In this document: positions 1 through 25,784 of the stretch, in pieces
How the letters are laid out: each line of letters opens with the position of its first letter
Numbering within the stretch: position 1 is the first letter of the stretch
NCBI GenBank assembly: GCA_008080595.1
Contig: VIKI01000068.1
Span: 1-32,413 of the forward strand
Reading direction: 5' to 3'
From: Comamonadaceae bacterium
GTDB lineage: Bacteria; Pseudomonadota; Gammaproteobacteria; Burkholderiales; Burkholderiaceae_C
Length of the DNA stretch: 32,413 nt
Notes under the pieces: generated by a model
The model's database searches: none
The model's input: only the letters and a program-made list of their open reading frames with translations
What the model was told of the DNA's origin: nothing
Position numbers and translations under genes: made by a program

Positions 1-1951
1 AAAGCGGGTGACACCGCAGGCCGCATTGCTGCGGCACACAAGCCGGAAAGTGTCTCACTGGATCAAATGCTGGTGGCCATGTTGCGAACCAACCCGGATG
101 CTTTTATTGGCGACAACATCAATCGCATCAAAACGGGTGCAGTGATCGCATTGCCCACCGAGGAACAAGCCAGCAGCACATCTACGGAACAAGCCAAACA
201 AATCATCTTTGCACAAAGTCGCGATTTCAATGCATTCAGGCAGCAACTGGCAGATCACGTCCCCACCACGTCGACCAAGCCTTCTGCGCGTACAGCCAGC
301 GGCAAGATAGAAGCCAACGTCAAAGAAAGTAAACCCAAAGCTACAACCCCGGACAAACTCACAGGTCACCACCAAGTCGGCTGAAGATCAACTGGCCAAT
401 ACCAAGAACGATCAAGCCATCGCCAATCGCAAAGCAGAACTTGCCAAAAACATTCAGGATCTGGACAAGCTTGCTGCCAGCTCAAAAACTGCAACCCAGC
501 CTACCGTACCAGCCAGCAGCCCGACTCCCGCCCTGACCCTACCCGGCCCTGCTGCGGCAACATCTCAACCCACGCCAGCGGCTGCCCCCGAGTCACCAGC
601 GTCGATGCCTGGACAAGCAGCTCCTGCGGCAAGCGCATCAGTTGCAGCAGCTTCAGCGGCCTCTGCACCACAGAAACCCGCGCCCAAACCCGTGCCTGTG
701 CCAGAGCCTGTCGCTGAACCGAGCCTGATTGACTCGCTACTTGAAAACCCCATGCTGCCTTTGGGTGCTGGTGGTTTGATTGCCTTGCTGGCAGGTTTGG
801 GGTTTTACAAGGTTCGGCAGCGCAAAAAAGCGGCTGATCTGGACAGCTCGTTCCTTGAAAGCCGTTTGAACCCAGAGTCTTTCTTTGGTGAAAGTGGTGG
901 CCAAAACATTGACACCAATGACAATCCTGTCACGGGCTCATCCATGATTTATTCGCCCAGCCAGCTTGATGCGGTGGACGATGTGGACCCCGTCGCTGAA
1001 GCCGACGTGTATCTGGCTTATGGCCGTGATCTGCAAGCCGAAGAAATCCTGAAAGATGCCCAGCGCAATAACCCCAACCGACTGGCCATCCATCACAAAC
1101 TGCTTGAAATCTATGCCAAACGGGCCGATACCAAGGCCTTTGAAGCCATTGCAACCCTGGCCTTCAATCTGACCAATGGCACAGGGGCGGATTGGGAACA
1201 AGTCTGCGAAAAAGGCTTGTCCATCGATCCTGACAACGCACTGTATCTGCCTGGTGGACAACCCCATGCTGTCGCCAACGCCAACACAAGTCCAATGGAT
1301 ATCGATGCCACCGGCTCCCTATCCCATACAGGCGCGGACGAAATCCAAGCCGAGTTTCAGCCATCCACCACCGACCTTGACTTGGATTTGGACTTCTCTA
1401 TCGATGAGTCCATCCCTGAGCCCAGCATCTCCTTGCCAACCCTGCCGGAGCCAGCTGAGCCCCCAGCAAGCCCGCAAGACGGCGCCATCGACTTCAGCAT
1501 CGATCCGCTGCCCTCACTGTCAATGGAACCGCTGTCGTTTGAGGTGCCTGAACCTGTTCCAGCACCCAGTGCACCTGATGAGCTAATGCCGATGGACAAC
1601 AGTCTGGATTTCTCAATTCCTGAGCCTCCAGCGCCCTCCGTACCCGATGCGTTTGACAAAACCCAAACACTGACCGAAACCCCAGCCCCCGATGTGCCCA
1701 GCCAAGCCGATGCTGGCATGCTGGAATTTGATCTGGGCTCACTGTCACTGGACTTGGGTGAGGAGCCCATTACCGAATCTGGTGCACTGCCCAACGCCAT
1801 CGAAAACCCGCTTGAAACCAAATTGGCATTGGCCGAAGAATTCAAAGCCATTGGGGATGACGACGGTGCACGTGCCCTGATTGAAGAAGTGATTGCCGAA
1901 GCCGCTGGCGACATCAAGGCCAAAGCGCAACGCGCACTCAAACAACTCTGA
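1..1951 (+). pseudogene. fimV: FimV family peptidoglycan-binding protein, 5' partial, frameshifted
   Basis: FimV/HubP proteins are inner-membrane polarity and pilus-assembly factors with a periplasmic LysM half and a cytoplasmic TPR half. The window opens inside the gene. Frame 1 reads KAGDTAGRIAAAHKPESVSL and on to PDKL, the conserved N-terminal FimV region, then hits TGA at 382. From about 359 frame 2 continues with SAEDQLANTKND, a Pro/Ala-rich linker, a membrane segment near 750-810 (MLPLGAGGLIALLAGLGFY) followed by basic residues, TPR-like repeats at about 985-1250, an acidic Ser/Pro-rich stretch, and the FimV C-terminal domain (NPLETKLALAEEFKAIGDDD) before TGA. The frame change lies at about 355-365 and needs one extra base or a loss of 3n+2 bases. 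A start codon at 605 could give only the C-terminal half. The family call is firm. Whether the break is real or an error is unknown. Confidence 0.85.
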
Positions 1952-1960
1952 CCCCTACGG

Positions 1961-2767
1961 ATGGCGCAAGAGACGCAAGACCGCGTGCGACTGGCGCTGG
2001 GCATCAGCTACCAAGGGGGCCACTACCAAGGCTGGCAAAGCCAATCGTCCGGGCAAACGGTGCAAGACCAGCTTGAAAAAGCCCTGAGCCAATTTGCCAA
2101 CCACCGCGTCTCTACCCTGTGCGCCGGGCGTACCGATGCCGGGGTGCATGGCCTGATGCAGGTGGTGCACTTTGACACCCCGGTGAATCGCCCCGAGGCC
2201 TCCTGGGTGCGCGGCCCCAACGCCTTGCTGCCGCGCGACATCGCCGTGCAATGGGCTCGGCATGTCCCGGCGGAATTCCACTGCCGTGCCAGCGCCCTGT
2301 CGCGCTGCTACGCCTACAGCCTGCTGGAATCCCCGGTGCGCCCCAGCGTGGAACATGGCCGGGTCGGCTGGGTGCACCGCCCTCTGAACCTTGAACGCAT
2401 GCAACAAGCTGCTGCCCTGCTGCTGGGTGAACACGATTTCACCTCGTTTCGCGCCAGCGCCTGCCAGGCCTTGTCACCGGTCAAACACCTGATGCGCATC
2501 GACATCAGCCGCCGTGGCGCTTACTGGCGCTTTGAATTTGAAGCCAATGCGTTTTTGCACCACATGATCCGCAACCTGATGGGCTGCCTGCTGCTCATTG
2601 GCGACCAGCGCCGCCCGCCGGAGTGGATCAGTGAGGTGCTGGCAGCACGCGACCGCGACGACGCCGCCCCCACGTTTTCGCCTGACGGACTGTATTTTTT
2701 AGGCCCGCGCTACGCCCCGCATTGGGGCTTGCCTGAACGCACCCCACTTTTTGACCTGCTGCCATGA
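1961..2767 (+). CDS. truA: tRNA pseudouridine(38-40) synthase TruA
   Basis: TruA converts uridines 38, 39 and 40 of the tRNA anticodon stem-loop to pseudouridine in the cytoplasm. The 268-residue product has the usual family length and an intact catalytic motif AGRTDAGVHG, with the nucleophilic Asp at residue 59. The second TruA half is also present (FRASACQALSPVKHL and the NAFLHHMIRNLMG motif). The ATG lies 9 bases after the fimV stop. The stop overlaps the trpF ATG as ATGA, so translation of trpF is probably coupled to it. The fimV-truA-trpF order is common in Burkholderiales. Confidence 0.97.
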   Translation: MAQETQDRVRLALGISYQGGHYQGWQSQSSGQTVQDQLEKALSQFANHRVSTLCAGRTDAGVHGLMQVVHFDTPVNRPEASWVRGPNALLPRDIAVQWARHVPAEFHCRASALSRCYAYSLLESPVRPSVEHGRVGWVHRPLNLERMQQAAALLLGEHDFTSFRASACQALSPVKHLMRIDISRRGAYWRFEFEANAFLHHMIRNLMGCLLLIGDQRRPPEWISEVLAARDRDDAAPTFSPDGLYFLGPRYAPHWGLPERTPLFDLLP

Positions 2768-3495
2768 CCCACCTGCCCACCACAAGCACACCCGGTTTGC
2801 TGCGTACCCGCATCAAAATCTGCGGCCTGACCCGCGAATCTGATGTGGATGCCGCCGTCGCTGCCGGGGTTGATGCGATTGGTTTTGTGCTGTACGCCAA
2901 AAGCCCACGCCATGTGTCGGCCCAACGCGCCGCCGAATTGGCCCGCAGACTTCCCCCCTTTGTCACCCCGGTGCTGCTCTTCGTCAATGAAGACACTACA
3001 AAAATTATAGCTGCTTGCGCAGATGTATCGGGGGCTATCGCCCAATTTCATGGTGATGAATCGCCGGCGGACTGCTGGGCCGCCAGCGAGCAAGGCCAGC
3101 GCCCCTACTTGCGGGCCGCCCGGATTCCCCTGGGTGAAGCCGGTCGCAGCTTTGATCTCTTAAAATTTGCCCAAGATTATTCACAGGCTCAAGGCCTCCT
3201 GCTCGACGCTCATATTGAAAGCTTCGGGGGTGGCGGGCAAACATTCAATTGGTCACTGCTTCCTCCAAACGTCAACGCTCACCTCGTCTTGAGTGGTGGG
3301 CTGAACGCTGCCAACGTGATCGATGGCATCACGCAGGTACGCCCACGCTGTAAATCGCTCAGCGTCGATATCAGCTCCGGTGTCGAAGTGCCCGGCCAAA
3401 AAGGCATCAAAGACCCGACCAAAATTCGTGAGTTTGTGACTGCCGTTCGTCTGGCAGACCAATTTTTAAGTGACAAATCAGCCTCTAGCCCTTGA
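2764..3495 (+). CDS. trpF: Phosphoribosylanthranilate isomerase TrpF
   Basis: TrpF performs the Amadori rearrangement of N-(5-phosphoribosyl)anthranilate to CdRP, the third step of tryptophan synthesis. The 243-residue product has the catalytic Cys20 in KICGLTRESD, the catalytic Asp148 in LLLDAHIESFGGGG, and the C-terminal phosphate-binding segment DISSGVEVPGQKGIKD. It starts with ATG overlapping the truA stop. Residues about 78-91 (TTKIIAACADVSGA) are encoded by DNA resembling a dispersed repeat, without lengthening the protein. The last codons and the stop (KSASSP) come from a second copy that fills the gap to trpB. Codons from about 3160 to 3300 look less GC-rich than in the flanking genes. 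The gene appears functional. Confidence 0.96.
   Translation: MTHLPTTSTPGLLRTRIKICGLTRESDVDAAVAAGVDAIGFVLYAKSPRHVSAQRAAELARRLPPFVTPVLLFVNEDTTKIIAACADVSGAIAQFHGDESPADCWAASEQGQRPYLRAARIPLGEAGRSFDLLKFAQDYSQAQGLLLDAHIESFGGGGQTFNWSLLPPNVNAHLVLSGGLNAANVIDGITQVRPRCKSLSVDISSGVEVPGQKGIKDPTKIREFVTAVRLADQFLSDKSASSP
2995..3043 (+). repeat. Dispersed repeat copy 1, inside trpF
   Basis: The core ATAGCTGCTTGCGC at 3007-3020 is followed by a degenerate second half ending GGGGGCTATCGCC. It matches the half-site seen inverted at 3479-3525, 4799-4842 and 21970-22012. It lies in frame within trpF, and the protein keeps the family's length, so the segment either replaced native codons or converged on the repeat. 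Confidence 0.55.
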
Positions 3496-3531: not shown

Positions 3532-4857
3532 ATGTTTGACTACCAACAACCCGACCCACGCGGTCACTTCGGCATCTACGGTGGCAGTTTTGCCTCTGAG
3601 ACCCTGACCCACGCCATCAACGAGCTCAAAGCCGCTTACGCCAAATACCAGTTTGACCCCGAGTTCATCGCCGAATTCGAATCCGAACTGGCCCACTTTG
3701 TCGGCCGCCCCTCCCCCATCTACCATGCGGCCCGCATGAGCCGCGAGATGGGTGGGGCACAAATCTTCCTCAAACGCGAAGACCTGAACCACACCGGGGC
3801 CCACAAGATCAACAACACCATTGGTCAGGCCATGCTGGCCAAGCGCATGGGCAAACCGCGCGTGATTGCCGAAACCGGGGCCGGCCAGCACGGTGTGGCC
3901 ACCGCCACCATCTGTGCCCGCTACGGGCTTGAATGTGTGGTCTACATGGGCAGTGAAGATGTCAAGCGCCAAAGCCCGAATGTCTACCGCATGAAGCTGC
4001 TCGGGGCCACCGTGGTGCCCGTCACCAGCGGCAGCCGCACCCTGAAAGATGCGCTCAACGAAGCCATGCGCGACTGGGTCGCCAACGTGGACAACACCTT
4101 CTACATCATCGGTACCGTGGCCGGGCCTCACCCCTACCCGATGATGGTGCGCGATTTCCAGAGCGTGATCGGCAAGGAATGCCTGGTGCAAATGCCCGAG
4201 ATGCTCAAAGCCGCCGGTTGCAAAACCGACCAACCTGACGTGGTGGTAGCCTGTGTCGGTGGCGGCTCGAATGCCATGGGCATTTTCTACCCCTACATCC
4301 AGCATGAAACCACCCAACTGATCGGCGTCGAAGCCGCCGGCGAGGGCATGGACAGCGGCAAGCATTCGGCCAGCATCCAGCGCGGCAGCCCCGGCGTGTT
4401 GCACGGCAACCGCACCTATGTGCTGCAAGACGACAACGGCCAGGTCACCGAAACCCACAGCATCAGCGCCGGGTTGGACTACCCCGGTGTTGGCCCCGAG
4501 CACGCTTTTTTGAACGACATTGGCCGCGCCCAATACGTCGGCATCACCGACAAAGAGGCGCTGGAAGCCTTTCACTACCTGTGCCGCACCGAGGGCATCA
4601 TCCCGGCGCTGGAATCCAGCCACGCCGTGGCCTATGCCATGCAACTGGCCAAAACCATGCGGCCCGACCAGTCCATTCTGGTCAACCTGTCCGGCCGGGG
4701 CGACAAAGACATTGGCACGGTGGCCGACCTGTCCAAGGCCGATTTCTTCTGCCGCCCCAGCTGCCAGGGTCAATCGGTCAAAGGTGATGGTCAAAATGTG
4801 CCTGTAGCGCTTATTAAACCAGCGCAAGCAGCTACTATTTCAGGAGCAAACCAATGA
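3532..4857 (+). CDS. trpB: Tryptophan synthase beta chain TrpB with repeat-derived tail
   Basis: TrpB is the PLP enzyme that condenses indole with serine in the last step of tryptophan synthesis, in an alpha2-beta2 complex with TrpA. The 441-residue product carries the PLP lysine Lys92 in [10 protein letters not shown], the phosphate-binding GGGSNAMG and the C-terminal ESSHAVAYA. The usual end of the family (RPS..G..VKG) is reached near residue 417. A further 20 or so residues (ending [14 protein letters not shown]) are encoded by dispersed repeat copy 3, so the tail looks acquired. The stop overlaps the trpA ATG as ATGA. The enzyme itself looks intact, and TrpB can use free indole without TrpA. 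Confidence 0.97.
4799..4842 (-). repeat. Dispersed repeat copy 3, encoding the TrpB C-terminal tail
   Basis: On the minus strand it reads TAGTAGCTGCTTGCGC, a short spacer, then AAGCGCTACAGGC, close to copies 2 and 5. The plus-strand reading frame stays open through it and encodes [13 protein letters not shown] at the end of TrpB. Confidence 0.7.
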
Positions 4858-5650
4858 GCCGCATTGCTGCTACTTTTAGCCAACTGAAAACCCAGGGCCG
4901 CAAGGCGCTGATTCCGTTTGTTACTGCGGGCTTCCCGTTTGCCGACATCACGCCCGAGCTGATGCATGCCTTGGCGGCCGGTGGTGCATCCAGAAAGCGG
5001 GTGACAAGGCCTTGTCGTTTGGCATCGGCTTGACCCAGGTGCTGGACATGGTGCGCGTGTTTCGCCAGCAAAACCAGACCACCCCGGTGGTGCTGATGGG
5101 CTACGCCAACCCGGTAGAACGTTACAACCAGGTTCACGCCGCTTCAAAAACAGAAGCTGCTCAGGCAAGCAGCACAAGCGCTACCAGCCCATTTGTTCGT
5201 GATGCCGCAGCAGCCGGGGTGGATGGCGTGCTGGTGGTGGACTACCCGCCGGAAGAGTGCGAAGACTTCGCCGCCGAGCTGAAAGCCCATGGCCTGGATT
5301 TGATCTTCTTGTTAGCACCCACTTCCACCGATGAGCGCATGCAGCAAGTGGCTCGAATCGCCAGCGGCTACGTGTACTACGTGTCGCTCAAAGGGGTCAC
5401 CGGCTCGGGTGCGCTCGACACCGGTGCGGTGGAGGCCATGCTGCCACGCATCCGCGCCCATGTGCAGTGTCCGGTGGGCGTGGGTTTTGGCATTCGCGAT
5501 GCCGCCACCGCCAAGGCGATTGGCCGGGTGGCCGATGCGGTGGTGATCGGCAGCAAAATCATTCAACTGATTGACAGCCAGCCGCGCGACCAGGTATCGG
5601 CCACGGCACAAACCTTCCTGCGTGAAATCCGCACCGCATTGGATTCATAA
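4854..5650 (+). pseudogene. trpA: Tryptophan synthase alpha chain, 55-nt internal deletion
   Basis: TrpA cleaves indole-3-glycerol phosphate to indole for TrpB. The ATG at 4854 opens a normal N-terminus ([20 protein letters not shown] through [10 protein letters not shown], residue 45), then the frame runs into TGA at 5031-5033. From 4988 the frame beginning ATC CAG AAA continues normal TrpA ([14 protein letters not shown]) to TAA at 5650. The family has 18 residues between these points (D46 to V63), including catalytic Glu49 and Asp60, so about 55 nt are missing at the 4987/4988 junction. The 3' part could only start from TTG at 5012 and would lack the catalytic acids. A repeat-derived insert of about 16 residues ([18 protein letters not shown]) follows NPVERYNQV. 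No TrpA activity is expected from this copy. Confidence 0.93.
5141..5189 (+). repeat. Dispersed repeat copy 4, in-frame inside trpA
   Basis: The segment reads GAAGCTGCTCAGGCAAGC, then AGCACAAGCGCTACCAGCC. It is a variant of the repeat seen in the other trp genes. It adds about 16 residues between VERYNQVH and [10 protein letters not shown], which are nearly adjacent in ordinary TrpA proteins, in a loop before the strand carrying [12 protein letters not shown]. Confidence 0.6.
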
Positions 5651-6597: not shown

Positions 6598-8199
6598 CTA
6601 AAGCTTGAACACCCCCACCATGCGTGTCAGATGCCCGGCCTGCTCCTTGAGCGATTCGGCCGCAGCGGCTGATTCCTCCACCAGCGCGGCGTTTTGCTGC
6701 GTCATGTGATCGAGCTGGCTGACCGCGCGGTTGATCTGGCTGATGCCCTCAGACTGGGCGCTGGAGGTGGATGACATGTCGCCCACGATATGGGAGACGC
6801 GCTGCACCGAGCCCACGATGTCTGTCATCATTTGGCCCGCGTCATTGACCAGGGTGGTGCCGGCCTGCACCCGCTCCACAGACTGGCTGATCAAGGCCTT
6901 GATTTCCCGAGCCGCTGCCGCTGAGCGGCCAGCCAGCTTCACCCGCCACAATCGCAAAACCCCGGCCTTGCTCACCGGCCCGCGCCGCTTCTACTGCCGC
7001 GTTCAGGGCCAGGATGTTGGTCTGGAACGCAATGCCGTCAATGACGCTGGTGATGTCCGCAATCCGCCCTGAACTGCTGGCAATCTGCCCCATGGTGGCC
7101 ACCACCTGCCCCATCACCAAGCCACCTTGTGCGGCCAACTCTGCGGCGGATGCGGCCAGTTGATGGGCGTGCTGGGCGGCTTGCACACTTTGGTGAACCG
7201 TGCCGGTGAGTTCTTCCATGGAACCGGCGGCCTGCTGCAAGTTGGAAGAAGTCCGTTCGGTACGCTGGCTCAAATCCTGGTTGCCCATGGCCACCTCGGC
7301 GCTGGCGGTTTGAATCGAATCGGCCGTGTGCAGAATGCCCCGCACCAGTTGCTGCAAGCGCTGTTGCATGGCATTGACGGCTTCCAGCAGACGCCCGGTT
7401 TCGTCCTGGGCATGCACCTCGATCTTGGAGGTCAGGTCACCCTGTGCAATGCGCTCAGCCACTCGCATGGTGCGCTGGATCGGCAGCTCAACACCGAGCG
7501 CTGCTGGCTGCTGTTGGCTGCAGAGGCCGCCTCTACCGACAAACGCTCCTGCAACTCACCCAACGCTGCCACCTTGCTGCGCCACTGTGTTTCTGCGGCT
7601 TGCACCTGCGTCGTCAAGCTGGCAACGGCTGCCGCGTTGTCACCATCGCTGCCCTGCTGGACGGTCTTGTCAATCAACGGTAGAGCGGTTTGGCTGATGC
7701 TCACCATGTCGTCCAGGGTGCTGCGCTCCTGCTCGGTAGCCTGGGACTTGGCCATAACGGCGATCAGCTCGCGCTGCGTGGTGTCGTAAGCCGCTTTGGC
7801 GGCGGCCACCAGCACCACTTCCTGGTCAATTTTCTGGATGTCGGTGAACAAGGCCACGTTTCGCATGTGCACGGCGAGTTCATTGATGCTGTTCATCAAC
7901 CCCCTGGCCAGCTTGATCTTGACCGCGTTCACTTCGGTGATTTGCCGGAGCTGCGCCGACATGTTTTGCATACCCACCCCACTGACAAGCGCTACCGCCA
8001 GCAGCAGCAACAACACCGTGCCAAAGCCCAGCCCCAGGCGGCGGGCAATCGATGTGTGCGATTGGAGAGGCACAGGTGTCACTTCCCGGCCACCGGGAGT
8101 TGAGTGGATGGGTGCTGCGAGCTCAGGAGTGAAGTCGGCAGCAGGCCGCTGCTGACTTGTTATGAGGGACTTGCGCCAAAGCTGGGGGATCTTGGTCAT
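6598..8199 (-). pseudogene. Methyl-accepting chemotaxis protein, two frame breaks, TM2 lost
   Basis: Chemoreceptors carry ligand signals across the inner membrane to CheA/CheW. Three consecutive frames together cover a receptor. The first (from ATG at 8199) has a long cytoplasmic N-tail, TM1 at residues 57-77 and a four-helix-bundle sensor region. It then reads [11 protein letters not shown] and leaves frame at about 7485. The second begins within HAMP ([20 protein letters not shown]) and includes the signalling tip ([20 protein letters not shown]). The third ([17 protein letters not shown] to GVFKL, TAG at 6598) resumes after a break at about 6934-6944. TM2, expected between the sensor and HAMP, is absent, implying a loss of roughly 55-75 nt (3n+1). 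The second break fits loss of 8 nt from the conserved GEVRKLAGRSA region. The start lies 2 bases after the PhnD-like gene, so the two were one transcript. Confidence 0.85.
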
Positions 8200-18095: not shown

Positions 18096-19124
18096 ATGAC
18101 ATTTACAGCTCAGATAAGGCATCAAGAAAACAGCCCATTGGATCGCGTTGACCTGTCCGTGGTGGTCCCCCTTTACAACGAGCGTGCGGTGCTCCCCCTG
18201 TTGGTGGAACGACTTACACACGTTCTGGCTCCGCTTGGTGTCAGCTACGAACTGGTGCTGGTCGATGACGGTAGCCGCGACGGCAGCGGTGACTATCTGC
18301 TGGAACTCGCCGCCAACAATCCGAAGATCAAGGCGGCGCGCCTGAGCCGCAATTTCGGCAAGGAAGCCGCCCTGACCGCAGGCATGGACTTATCCAGTGG
18401 TGATGCCGTGGTTATTCTGGATGCGGACTTACAAGACCCGCCCGAACTCATTGGCACCATGCTTGAGGCCATGCGTGCGGGCTCAGACATCGTCAGCATG
18501 AAACGGCGGACCCGGGCCGGAGAATCCTGGGGCAAACGACTCAGTGCACACCTTTTCTACCGCCTGATGAGCCGCATCAGCCATTTTGAAATCCCCGAAG
18601 ACACGGGCGACTTTCGTTTGATGAGCCGAAGGGCGGTCAACGCCCTGAACAGCTTGCCCGAGCGCAACCGCTACATGAAAGGCCTGTTCGCCTGGGTTGG
18701 CTTCCCCACCCATGTGATCGAATATGACCGCGAAGCACGTGCTGCGGGCACCACCAAATGGAAGCTGCTGGGGCTGATCGGCTTGGCCCTTGAGGGCATT
18801 ACCTCGTTTTCCATCGTACCCTTGCGCTGGGCCACCGGGCTGGGTTTGCTGGCCGCGCTGATAGGCATCTCCTTCGGGCTGTGGATTGTGATCGGAGCCC
18901 TGTTTCATGGCAATGAGGTGGCAGGTTACCCGTCGCTGATTGCCGTCATCACCTTCCTGGGCGGTGTTCAGTTACTGTCAGTTGGCCTGTTGGGTGAATA
19001 CGTGGGCAAAACCTATTTTGAAACCAAACAACGGCCACTTTATGTGCTGCGCGATGTGGTGCAAAGTCCCCGCCTTGCCACCCCTATGTCAACAGAAGGA
19101 ACTGGGTGTGCTGAGTCGAATTAA
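18096..19124 (+). CDS. Family 2 glycosyltransferase, DPM1/ArnC/GtrB-like
   Basis: This enzyme most likely transfers a sugar from a nucleotide donor to polyprenyl phosphate at the inner membrane. The 342-residue product (from ATG 18096; GTG 18087 is an alternative) has the GT-A start VVVPLYNERAV, VLVDDGSRDGS, the metal-binding ILDADLQDPPE (a DxD-type motif) and EDTGDFRLMSRRA. Two C-terminal membrane segments follow (about 245-270 and 280-305), the normal plan for this family. The next gene, an ArnT-like transferase, starts inside its 3' end, and the pair would make and use a lipid-linked sugar, for example to decorate lipid A or another envelope glycan. The exact sugar is unknown. Confidence 0.92.
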   Translation: MTFTAQIRHQENSPLDRVDLSVVVPLYNERAVLPLLVERLTHVLAPLGVSYELVLVDDGSRDGSGDYLLELAANNPKIKAARLSRNFGKEAALTAGMDLSSGDAVVILDADLQDPPELIGTMLEAMRAGSDIVSMKRRTRAGESWGKRLSAHLFYRLMSRISHFEIPEDTGDFRLMSRRAVNALNSLPERNRYMKGLFAWVGFPTHVIEYDREARAAGTTKWKLLGLIGLALEGITSFSIVPLRWATGLGLLAALIGISFGLWIVIGALFHGNEVAGYPSLIAVITFLGGVQLLSVGLLGEYVGKTYFETKQRPLYVLRDVVQSPRLATPMSTEGTGCAESN

Positions 19125-20488
19125 CTTGTGGTGGGTGTGCCGAAGTGGCCCGCCTGATGGCTACAACCGGCGACTGGATCACCCCCTGGTTCACCCCTGA
19201 GCTGCCGTTTTGGGGCAAACCCCCTTTGTCGTTCTGGACTGAAGCCATCGCCTTCAAACTGCTCGGCACGAATGAGTTTGCAGTTCGGCTGCCCTCCTGG
19301 TTGGCAACGCTGGGCAGCATGGGTTTGATTTTTGCCTACGCACGCAGCTATTTTGGGCCACAGGTGGCCACCTGGTCACTGTTGATTTATGCGTCTTGTG
19401 CGCTGGTGTTTATTGCCGCCGGTGCCGTGCTGACCGATCCGTTTCTGGCCTTGGCCACGACCTGGGCCATGGTGGCACTGGCCATGGCAGCCCACTCCCC
19501 CCGCTGGTACTGGCGTTACGGTTTTTTTGTGGCCATGGCCATCGGCCTGCTGGCCAAGGGGCCGTTGATTGGGGTTTTGGTGGCCGGGCCGCTGCTGCCT
19601 TTGCTGGTGTTTTATCCCACTCTGCGCGCCTCATTCCTGAAAATGCCTTGGTTCTCAGGAACAGCGCTGATGCTGCTCCTGAGCGTGCCCTGGTATGTGA
19701 TGGCCGAGCTCAAAACCCCCGGTTTTTTGAACTATTTTTTGGTTGGTGAACACTTCTTGCGGTTCATCGATTCCGGCTGGGCGGGCGACTTGTACGGCGT
19801 GGCTCACAAACGCATGAAAGGGGCGATCTGGCTGGAAGTCTTGACTGCCTCTTTCCCATGGGGCTTGCTGGCGCTGGCGATGTTGCTGCGCCACCTGTTC
19901 AAGCCTGCGCAACGTGCCCTGTTGTGGCAAAAACGGCAAGACCCGAATCTGGCTTACCTGCTGGCCTGGGCCTTGTTCACCCCCGCGTTCTTTACGCTTT
20001 CAGGCAATATTTTGTGGACTTATGTGTTGCCAGCCCTGGCTTCTTTCAGCGTGCTGATGGCGCTGGCGCTTTCGCCAGAGAAAACTGCCAAACCCTGGCA
20101 GCGGTCTGGCCAACTGCTGCTGACGACTTTGGTTCCTCTGGGGGTCACCGCTTACATGGTGGTGGGTGCATTTCAACCCGAACTGCTGAAGACCGAGAAA
20201 TACCTGGTGTCACACGCCATGACACAGATGAAGCCTGGGGACAAACTGGTGTATCTGGACGATGTGCCTTTTTCAGCCACCTTTTACACCCGTGGCCAGA
20301 CCGGGGTGATCACACTGAATCAGTTGACTGACCCTTCTGCGCTGTACCTGGCCATGCAGAAAAAAGATTGGGCCGTGGTGTCGGGCAAATTCACACCGCC
20401 TTTGCCCCAGCTCTTTGAAAGCCGGGAACACATCTTGACGGTGATTCCACCCGCCACATCTGCACCCAAGGCAACCCAACAACCGTAA
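19108..20488 (+). pseudogene. ArnT-like (GT83) lipid-linked sugar transferase, N-terminal deletion
   Basis: ArnT-type multi-span transferases move a sugar from a polyprenyl carrier onto lipid A or other envelope acceptors. GTG at 19108 (AAGGA about 7 bases upstream) opens VLSRINLWWV, a plausible start of TM1, but this frame ends downstream with a nonsense product. From about 19139 another frame reads AEVARLMATTGDWITPWF, then GKPPLSFW and many membrane segments to TAA at 20488. The missing stretch, roughly 27 residues (about 80 nt, 3n+2), normally holds TM1 and the first periplasmic loop with the conserved D-x-x-E-A-R-Y motif, which contains the catalytic acid. A GTG at 19145 could start a 447-residue protein without it. 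Activity is not expected. Confidence 0.85.
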
Positions 20489-24167: not shown

Positions 24168-24203
24168 CACTGCGTAAACAGCTACATAATTTATAGCTAT
24201 TTA
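24168..24203 (-). repeat. Dispersed repeat copy 6 (half element) between convergent genes
   Basis: The plus strand reads TGCGTAAACAGCTA, then AATTTATAGC, resembling the right half of copy 2 (AAGCGAAAGCAGCTATCAAA then TTTATA). It fills most of the 31-base gap between the diguanylate cyclase and the exported unknown gene. It includes an imperfect inverted repeat (AGCTA/TAGCT) that might help termination. Confidence 0.45.
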
Positions 24204-25653
24204 GCCACCGGGTAGGCTGCAAACAGTTTGGCAAAACCCGTGGCCTGTTTGAGCACGGCGTGGGCCACCTGGCTGTAGGCTGCGTTGTTGGTTTTGGCCA
24301 CACTCACGGATTGGGAGCTTTTGGCACCCAGTGCCCCAAACAGGCTCATCACCGTGCCTTTGTTGTTTTCTTCCACTTTTTGCAGATCGGCAAACTCGGC
24401 ATCGGTGTCGATCCGATGGGTGAGCGTGAGTGCCCCGTCATCCCCCTTGAAGACGATGCCGCCGTAACGGGTTTCCTCGGCACGCACCACACGGGTGTTG
24501 AAGCTTGAAACACTCATGGTCAAACTCGCGCCCACCGACGCACTGCTGCTGGTGAAGCCGCTGCGGTTTCCGCTGGACTGCATCCGTGCAAAGTCAATCA
24601 CGATGGCCGGTGCAATGGCCAAGGCGTTGGCACTTTTGGAAAGTTCATTAAAGGCGCGCATATTGGCCTGGCTCAACCCGGAGTCACCCCAGGCATCACC
24701 CCCCTGCCACCACAGCGGCACCCCACGTGGTGTGAACGCCCGCCCTCGCAAGGCCGCCAGCGTCACCTCCTGCGGAACCGCGCTGGTCTTGAAATCAGCG
24801 TACAGGGGTTGCAACTGCTCGGGTGTCATGACCTCGCGCCCCGCAGCCTTCAGCTGCGCCACCAGCCTTTGGTAGGCCACATCGGTGATGGCCTGCAAAG
24901 TGGCGTCATCCACCCCTTGCAAATCAATCTCCATCTTGGCTTTGGCGGTACCGGTTTCGCGCCCACCCGGCATATAGCTGCCACGGGTGATGGCCGAAGT
25001 TTCGTTGTGGGTCACAAAAACAATGCGCAGCCCGGCAATGGCCACCCGGTTGCTGCGGGCAAAAGCATTCACCGTTTTCTCGCCAAACGTGCCCCCCATC
25101 TTGCCGTCAAACCACTGTGAAGGGTCCAGATCGGGCAACTCCACCGCCTTGCTCACACTCTCGGTGGGGGCCGTTGCCACGGCAGCCGAACTGGCCGAGA
25201 GCTGCAACCCTTGCCGAGCGCCAGTTGCAGCAAATGGCCTTTGCGCTCCTTGGCTTGCTGCATGCGGTTGGCCGCCTCCTGGGCACTGGCTTGGCCGGAC
25301 TGTTGCGCAACTTCCGCCGTGGTTTTGGCAGCCAGTTTTCCGAACAATTGCCCGCCCAAACCCGCAATGCTGCCAAACAAACCGGTGCGTTCGGCCACCT
25401 CGGCCGCAACACCACCCACGGCACCTGCCGTAGCCGTGGTGTTGCCGCTGCTTTGTGCGGCACTGGCCTCAGCCAGCGCGGTATTCATTTCAGCGACGGC
25501 CGCATCAAGCTGGACGCAGCTCAGCGCACTGTCACCTGCACGGACTCGTTCTATCCCGCTCGCTGGGGTTTGCGACCATGCGCTGCTGCAGGCCAGGGTG
25601 GCCGCCGCAGCCCATGCCAAGGCAGATGGGTTTCCAGATCGCGTGATGGACAT
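24197..25653 (-). pseudogene. Exported protein of unknown function, frameshifted
   Basis: I do not recognise the family. ATG at 25653 has AGGAGA 5 bases upstream and opens a signal peptide (MSITRSGNPSALAWAAAATL, cut near AWSQ). An Ala/Gly-rich middle (GAVGGVAAEVAERTGLFGSI) and the end RKGHLLQLALGKG follow, where the frame runs out. At about 25195-25215 another frame takes over as LQLSASSAAVATAPTESVSK and continues for some 330 residues (WFDGKMGGTFGEKTVNAF, a Ser-rich stretch, a Lys/Val-rich end) to the stop at 24197. Together they would make a periplasmic protein of roughly 485 residues. The second frame has no start or ribosome-binding site of its own, so one broken gene is more likely than two genes. 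Confidence 0.75.
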
Positions 25654-25784
25654 AAAGTTCTCCTGTGGCAGGGGTGTATCGCAAGGTGTTGTTGCTATGC
25701 AATGTAGGTCGTACCTCACACCGTGTGCACCCCGTGAACGCGGGGGATGGTGTTGTGGCTGGTTTCGCGTATCCTGCGGCCACC

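Follow-up and report, generated by a model that had tools for sequence, protein, structure and literature searches.

The window analysed here is a stretch of 32,413 nt, bases 1-32413 of contig 46 in a draft assembly (G000) of 5,419,220 bases in 322 contigs, with a completeness of 89.25% and a contamination of 0.31%. It carries the genes truA, trpF, trpB, trpA and accD in that order (truA and accD were named by reading). The closest relative that we found, G010, is a genome of the same genus in one contig, with a completeness of 100%; it is 91% identical to the window over trpB-trpA-accD, the best of the other genomes searched, and its trpA is intact. With G010 as reference, the features of the trp region are as follows.

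2764..3495, plus strand: trpF, full length (NF002299 above cut-off)
3532..4857, plus strand: trpB, full length (TIGR00263 above cut-off); its final codons (about 4793-4840) overlap a dispersed repeat
4854..4988, plus strand: 5' part of trpA, codons 1-45, normal frame (tblastn with G010 TrpA residues 1-45, 91% identical, frame 3)
4987..4988, plus strand: junction at which 55 nt of G010 are absent (single gap in the G010 alignment)
4989..5033, plus strand: out-of-frame tail of the 59-codon stub ORF, stop codon included (ORF 4854-5033, 59 aa)
4988..5650, plus strand: 3' part of trpA, codons 64 to the end in G010 numbering, in another frame, uninterrupted (tblastn and TIGR00262)
5141..5190, plus strand: in-frame stretch of trpA that many homologues lack (loop length classes)

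The gap in trpA

Pairwise alignment of the window trpA (4854-5650, plus strand) to that of G010 shows one uninterrupted gap of exactly 55 nt after position ~4987, with ATCCAG immediately 3' of it and about 1 base of uncertainty in the position of the breakpoint; the trpB-trpA-accD span is 3112 nt in G010 and 3057 nt in the window. An earlier, sequence-only reading had proposed an out-of-frame loss of this size, and the single gap bears it out. The window contains no N, at the trpA junction or elsewhere. The ORF that starts at the ATG at 4854 has 45 normal TrpA codons (MSRIAATF...LAAGGA), then 14 wrong-frame codons and a stop ending at 5033, in agreement with the 59-residue stub that had been predicted. 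That TrpA is normal to residue 45 and then resumes in another frame was recovered both from the ORF list and by tblastn, in which residues 64-283 of G010 TrpA match at 94% identity in frame 2, with no stop; TIGR00262 scores above its cut-off for 5012-5647 in the same 3' part.

The stretch absent from the window is DVIELGVPFSDPSADGPV in G010, which contains the residues that we take to be Glu49 and Asp60 of TrpA; the alignment thus upholds the earlier claim that residues 46-63, with both acids, are gone. PF00290 gives two matches in different frames, covering profile positions 1-39 and 56-246, so that no single open frame runs across the alpha-chain barrel. By homology and by its location directly after trpB the gene belongs with TrpA (PF00290, TIGR00262), and outside the gap it is 90% identical in DNA to the intact G010 trpA. 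Unlike TrpA, the window copy as assembled is without codons 46-63 and out of frame, and the stretch with the catalytic Glu49 and Asp60 is what the 55-nt gap takes out.

Two further elements lie close by. A dispersed palindromic repeat (core GCGCAAGCAGCTA) overlaps the last trpB codons at 4793-4840, and a AGCGCTTAT-like sequence is often found upstream of the core. The repeat is also present at the G010 loci L063-L064 and L169-L208, and in the trpB-trpA-accD search query bases within 1254-1324, at the 3' end of trpB, had scattered matches in the own and related genomes. An 11-base core, GCGCAAGCAGC, was counted 19 times in G010 (833 kb) and 20 times in G000 (580 kb); of the 15 longer-core sites in G010, 6 lie inside ORFs of 150 aa or more that were called mechanically. 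Rickettsia has protein-coding palindromic elements, which the trpB-overlapping repeat recalls; a literature search for palindromic elements in Comamonadaceae found no paper, and none of the 8 papers listed by a further search names Rhodoferax. The second element is the TrpA loop after NPVERYNQ (window 5129-5190), whose length varies across loci: the measured stretch has 38 residues in 15 loci including that of G010 (L034), with some genomes represented by two of these loci; in L054 it has 49, and in the others mostly 20-32. The trpA insert resembles the palindromic repeat by eye only, through short shared words; with 3 mismatches allowed, an 18-base piece of the insert matches nowhere else in the window, and the trpB-trpA-accD search listed no scattered matches to the insert.

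Relatives and the other tryptophan genes

Judged by TrpA, the named relatives closest to the window are MAGs and isolates of Rhodoferax; the top one is 88% identical over the 212-aa fragment, in a search that may leave out the window's own record. The gap is present in none of 139 relative loci, and the catalytic stretch is present in all of them (136 by pattern, 3 by eye); the same gap with an intact frame in close relatives, which had been named as grounds for abandoning the claim, was therefore found at 0/139. These loci comprise 30 from a TrpA survey of 60 genomes, 29 from the trpB-trpA-accD search and 80 from the TrpA relative search. They are not independent genomes, since some come from the same genomes. 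Many of the 30 are related only at the order level; for the 30 and the 29, more genomes were searched than returned loci, and G009, G013 and G022, with split or cut TrpA matches, were left out. In the 60-genome survey TrpA was matched in 58 genomes, G000 counted in, and in 42/42 of those of good quality. A second trpA elsewhere in the genome had been suggested as one way out for the organism, and a PF00290 search of the whole assembled genome did not find one (of 7 candidates scored, the 2 that matched are both at this locus).

The other pathway genes examined have whole open frames. trpB and trpF had been judged intact, and both are full length in the window. In the same draft trpC is a whole open frame above its family cut-off, and trpE has a full-profile match with no stop, slightly below its family cut-off (511.2 vs 517.7 bits). 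Pairwise dN/dS against G010 is 0.078 for the two trpA parts combined, 0.082 for trpB, 0.164 for trpF, 0.061 for truA and 0.040 for accD, and thus reveals no relaxed selection on the trpA remnants. Such low values would fit an artefact or a very recent event, a young pseudogene included.

Breaks elsewhere in the draft

The window contains further frame breaks:

~375-400, plus strand: frame change in fimV, 14 nt shorter than G010 (G010 alignment; named by reading)
6598-8199, minus strand: chemotaxis-receptor gene, split twice into three ORFs (named by reading)
~19120-19145, plus strand: ArnT-like gene, ~75-85 nt missing near the start relative to relatives (named by reading)
24197-25719, minus strand: two overlapping ORFs that look like a single gene whose frame changes near 25.2 kb

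The comparison for the ArnT-like gene used coordinates from G032, G064, G076 and G077 and alignments to G032 and G076. At one of the chemotaxis-receptor breaks the second transmembrane segment is apparently absent. The relatives of this gene are at most ~77% identical, over parts of it only, so the size of its losses cannot be measured; the breaks are probably the same kind of assembly loss. Within the genus, no close relative turned up for the gene whose frame changes near 25.2 kb.

For a wider view we sampled 580,379 bases of G000, made up of the window and 40 stretches of at most 20 kb taken from contigs 1-40, of which ~559 kb remains once the 8 stretches that are whole contigs reading N are set aside. 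The G010 sample was 833,300 bases with 614 ORFs of at least 150 aa. Of these ORFs, 76 found a match in the G000 sample, and for 70 the match covered 80% or more of the length; among the 70, 64 stay in one frame and six change frame in G000. Two of the six touch N-gaps, namely murC and a probable RsmB-like gene, and the other four lose 32-103 nt: trpA (-55), rsmH (-56), a gene read as a sensor kinase (-32) and o10_440 (~-103), a less clear case that contains a replaced stretch. The gene names murD, murC and rsmH are those given by NCBIfam to the G010 genes. In the reverse comparison, of G000 ORFs on G010 DNA, 3/68 change frame, two mirroring murC and rsmH and the third being o0_224. A stop lies within the alignment for 11/68 G000 ORFs on G010 vs 4/70 in the opposite direction, an excess that antisense ORFs may explain.

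Walled bacteria need murC and murD. In G000 the murD gene, on contig 30, is missing 80 nt close to its start, a loss that is out of frame and carries no N; because of this position murD counts among the 64 one-frame ORFs. rsmH lacks 56 nt, likewise out of frame and without N, and murC has 57 N where G010 holds ~155 nt. Genome searches returned no other copy of murD or murC in G000, the remaining matches being distant Mur-ligase kin (28-36% identity overall, 28-32% in the murC search). A lesion like that in trpA thus occurs, in this assembly, in the essential genes murD and murC, each found as one copy only. rpoB is intact. The first 20 kb of contig 30 (L218) hold a cell-division and wall cluster with broken murC, murD and rsmH; with such a cluster broken in this draft, gene-loss claims made from the assembly need checking.

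We also aligned the two genomes in an anchored comparison of 84,116 aligned bases, which was preferred because the gene-wise gap lists, where the sequences align poorly, show many insertions paired with deletions; it failed to list the rsmH and murC lesions. Inside G010 ORFs it gives six shifts of at least 30 nt, five with G000 short and one, which adjoins a rearranged place in the window, with G000 long. The clear cases among the five are trpA, the kinase and murD; 92 nt before murG (o10_134) appear to be extra sequence in G010, and a 51-nt shift at o10_270 is in frame, within an antisense ORF. Coding shifts of 1-2 nt number four, all close to ORF ends, and frame-changing coding shifts of 4-11 nt number six, one at an N-gap and most near ORF ends. 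Interior indels of 1-2 nt are common in ordinary decaying genes, whereas in G000 such shifts are few and confined to the neighbourhood of ORF ends.

Internal N-runs in the ~559-kb sample number 16, with sizes of 1-69 nt. The flanks of two of them share 9 and 14 bases (a third pair shares 5, possibly by chance), so the contigs there truly overlap despite the written Ns, and some gap sizes are wrong. Taken with murC, where 57 N stand for ~155 nt, the overlapping flanks indicate that the draft's gap sizes cannot be relied on and err towards too large as well as too small.

Origin of the trpA gap

In the same draft, like breaks occur in genes indispensable to the cell, and the trpA gap is therefore most likely an assembly error. 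We put at about 0.88 the probability that the organism has an ordinary intact trpA, that the draft contains a faulty join and that the stub exists only in the file. The lesions in murD, rsmH and murC, the mis-sized N-gaps, the intact relatives, the lack of relaxed constraint and the preserved frames of trpC and trpE all count in favour of an artefact. Against it count the junction free of N and the many sound genes (rpoB; 64 of 70 ORFs in one frame), as does the fact that hairpin-prone lost segments, an expected cause of such losses, are not supported. Five lost segments, in G010 letters, were each folded against 600 background windows; the combined p was 0.06, with no excess after GC matching; of the individual segments, murC alone gave a low value (0.038), and once GC was matched none did.

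Taken as given, the sequence has the deletion, with no N at the junction and with no second trpA found in the genome, and these observations would suit a real and very recent loss of 55 nt that left a tryptophan (or indole) auxotroph whose TrpB could still use indole. We consider this unlikely: murD, rsmH and murC carry a like lesion and a walled bacterium should keep murC and murD, the trpA remnants are free of relaxed constraint, trpE and trpC are retained, and the gap is common to none of the examined relatives. The fuller picture, of a Rhodoferax-like bacterium that keeps its trpB, trpE, trpF and trpC frames, has only just lost its alpha chain and depends on its community for indole or tryptophan, is unlikelier still. 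The sequence-only reading had held that the organism would need a second trpA, indole or tryptophan unless the gap was an assembly error; the results favour the exception over the physiological part of that statement, given the second trpA that was not found, the whole trpE and trpC frames, the constrained remnants, the like lesions in murD, rsmH and murC and the 139 relative loci free of the gap. Decay of the whole lineage, with trpA as one pseudogene among many, might be read from the further frame breaks in the window (fimV, the chemotaxis receptor twice, the ArnT-like gene and the gene near 25.2 kb), but a genome of 5.42 Mb is large, most of the clear losses span tens of bases with coding shifts of 1-2 nt only near ORF ends, essential genes are affected, and dN/dS is low in trpA and the four neighbours tested; we regard such decay as very improbable. 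Least credible of all, to the point of being negligible, is a trpA that functions through recoding or re-initiation, for example from the 212-aa ORF that starts at 5012: the downstream part is indeed a single open frame of normal quality, but neither frameshifting nor re-initiation can restore the missing 18 residues with both catalytic acids.

Returning to the faulty join, we propose that the 55 bases would have been lost from trpA at a contig join during draft assembly, where a short scaffold gap was probably closed or mis-sized as zero or negative. If contigs were joined where the gap was estimated at zero or below, losses of tens of bases without N, such as that in trpA, could result; we infer that the trpA junction itself arose in this way, through gap closing. 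A published study describes assembly errors as generating many false pseudogenes in bacterial genomes (PMC11017572). The present case is alike in that the frame breaks fall in one draft while near relatives are intact, and may differ in that the losses in G000 are of tens of bases.

Were the deletion real after all, the organism would offer a clean example of losing the alpha chain while retaining other pathway genes. The main value of the finding is as a warning: gene losses in this draft should not be taken as biology of the organism until the joins have been checked.
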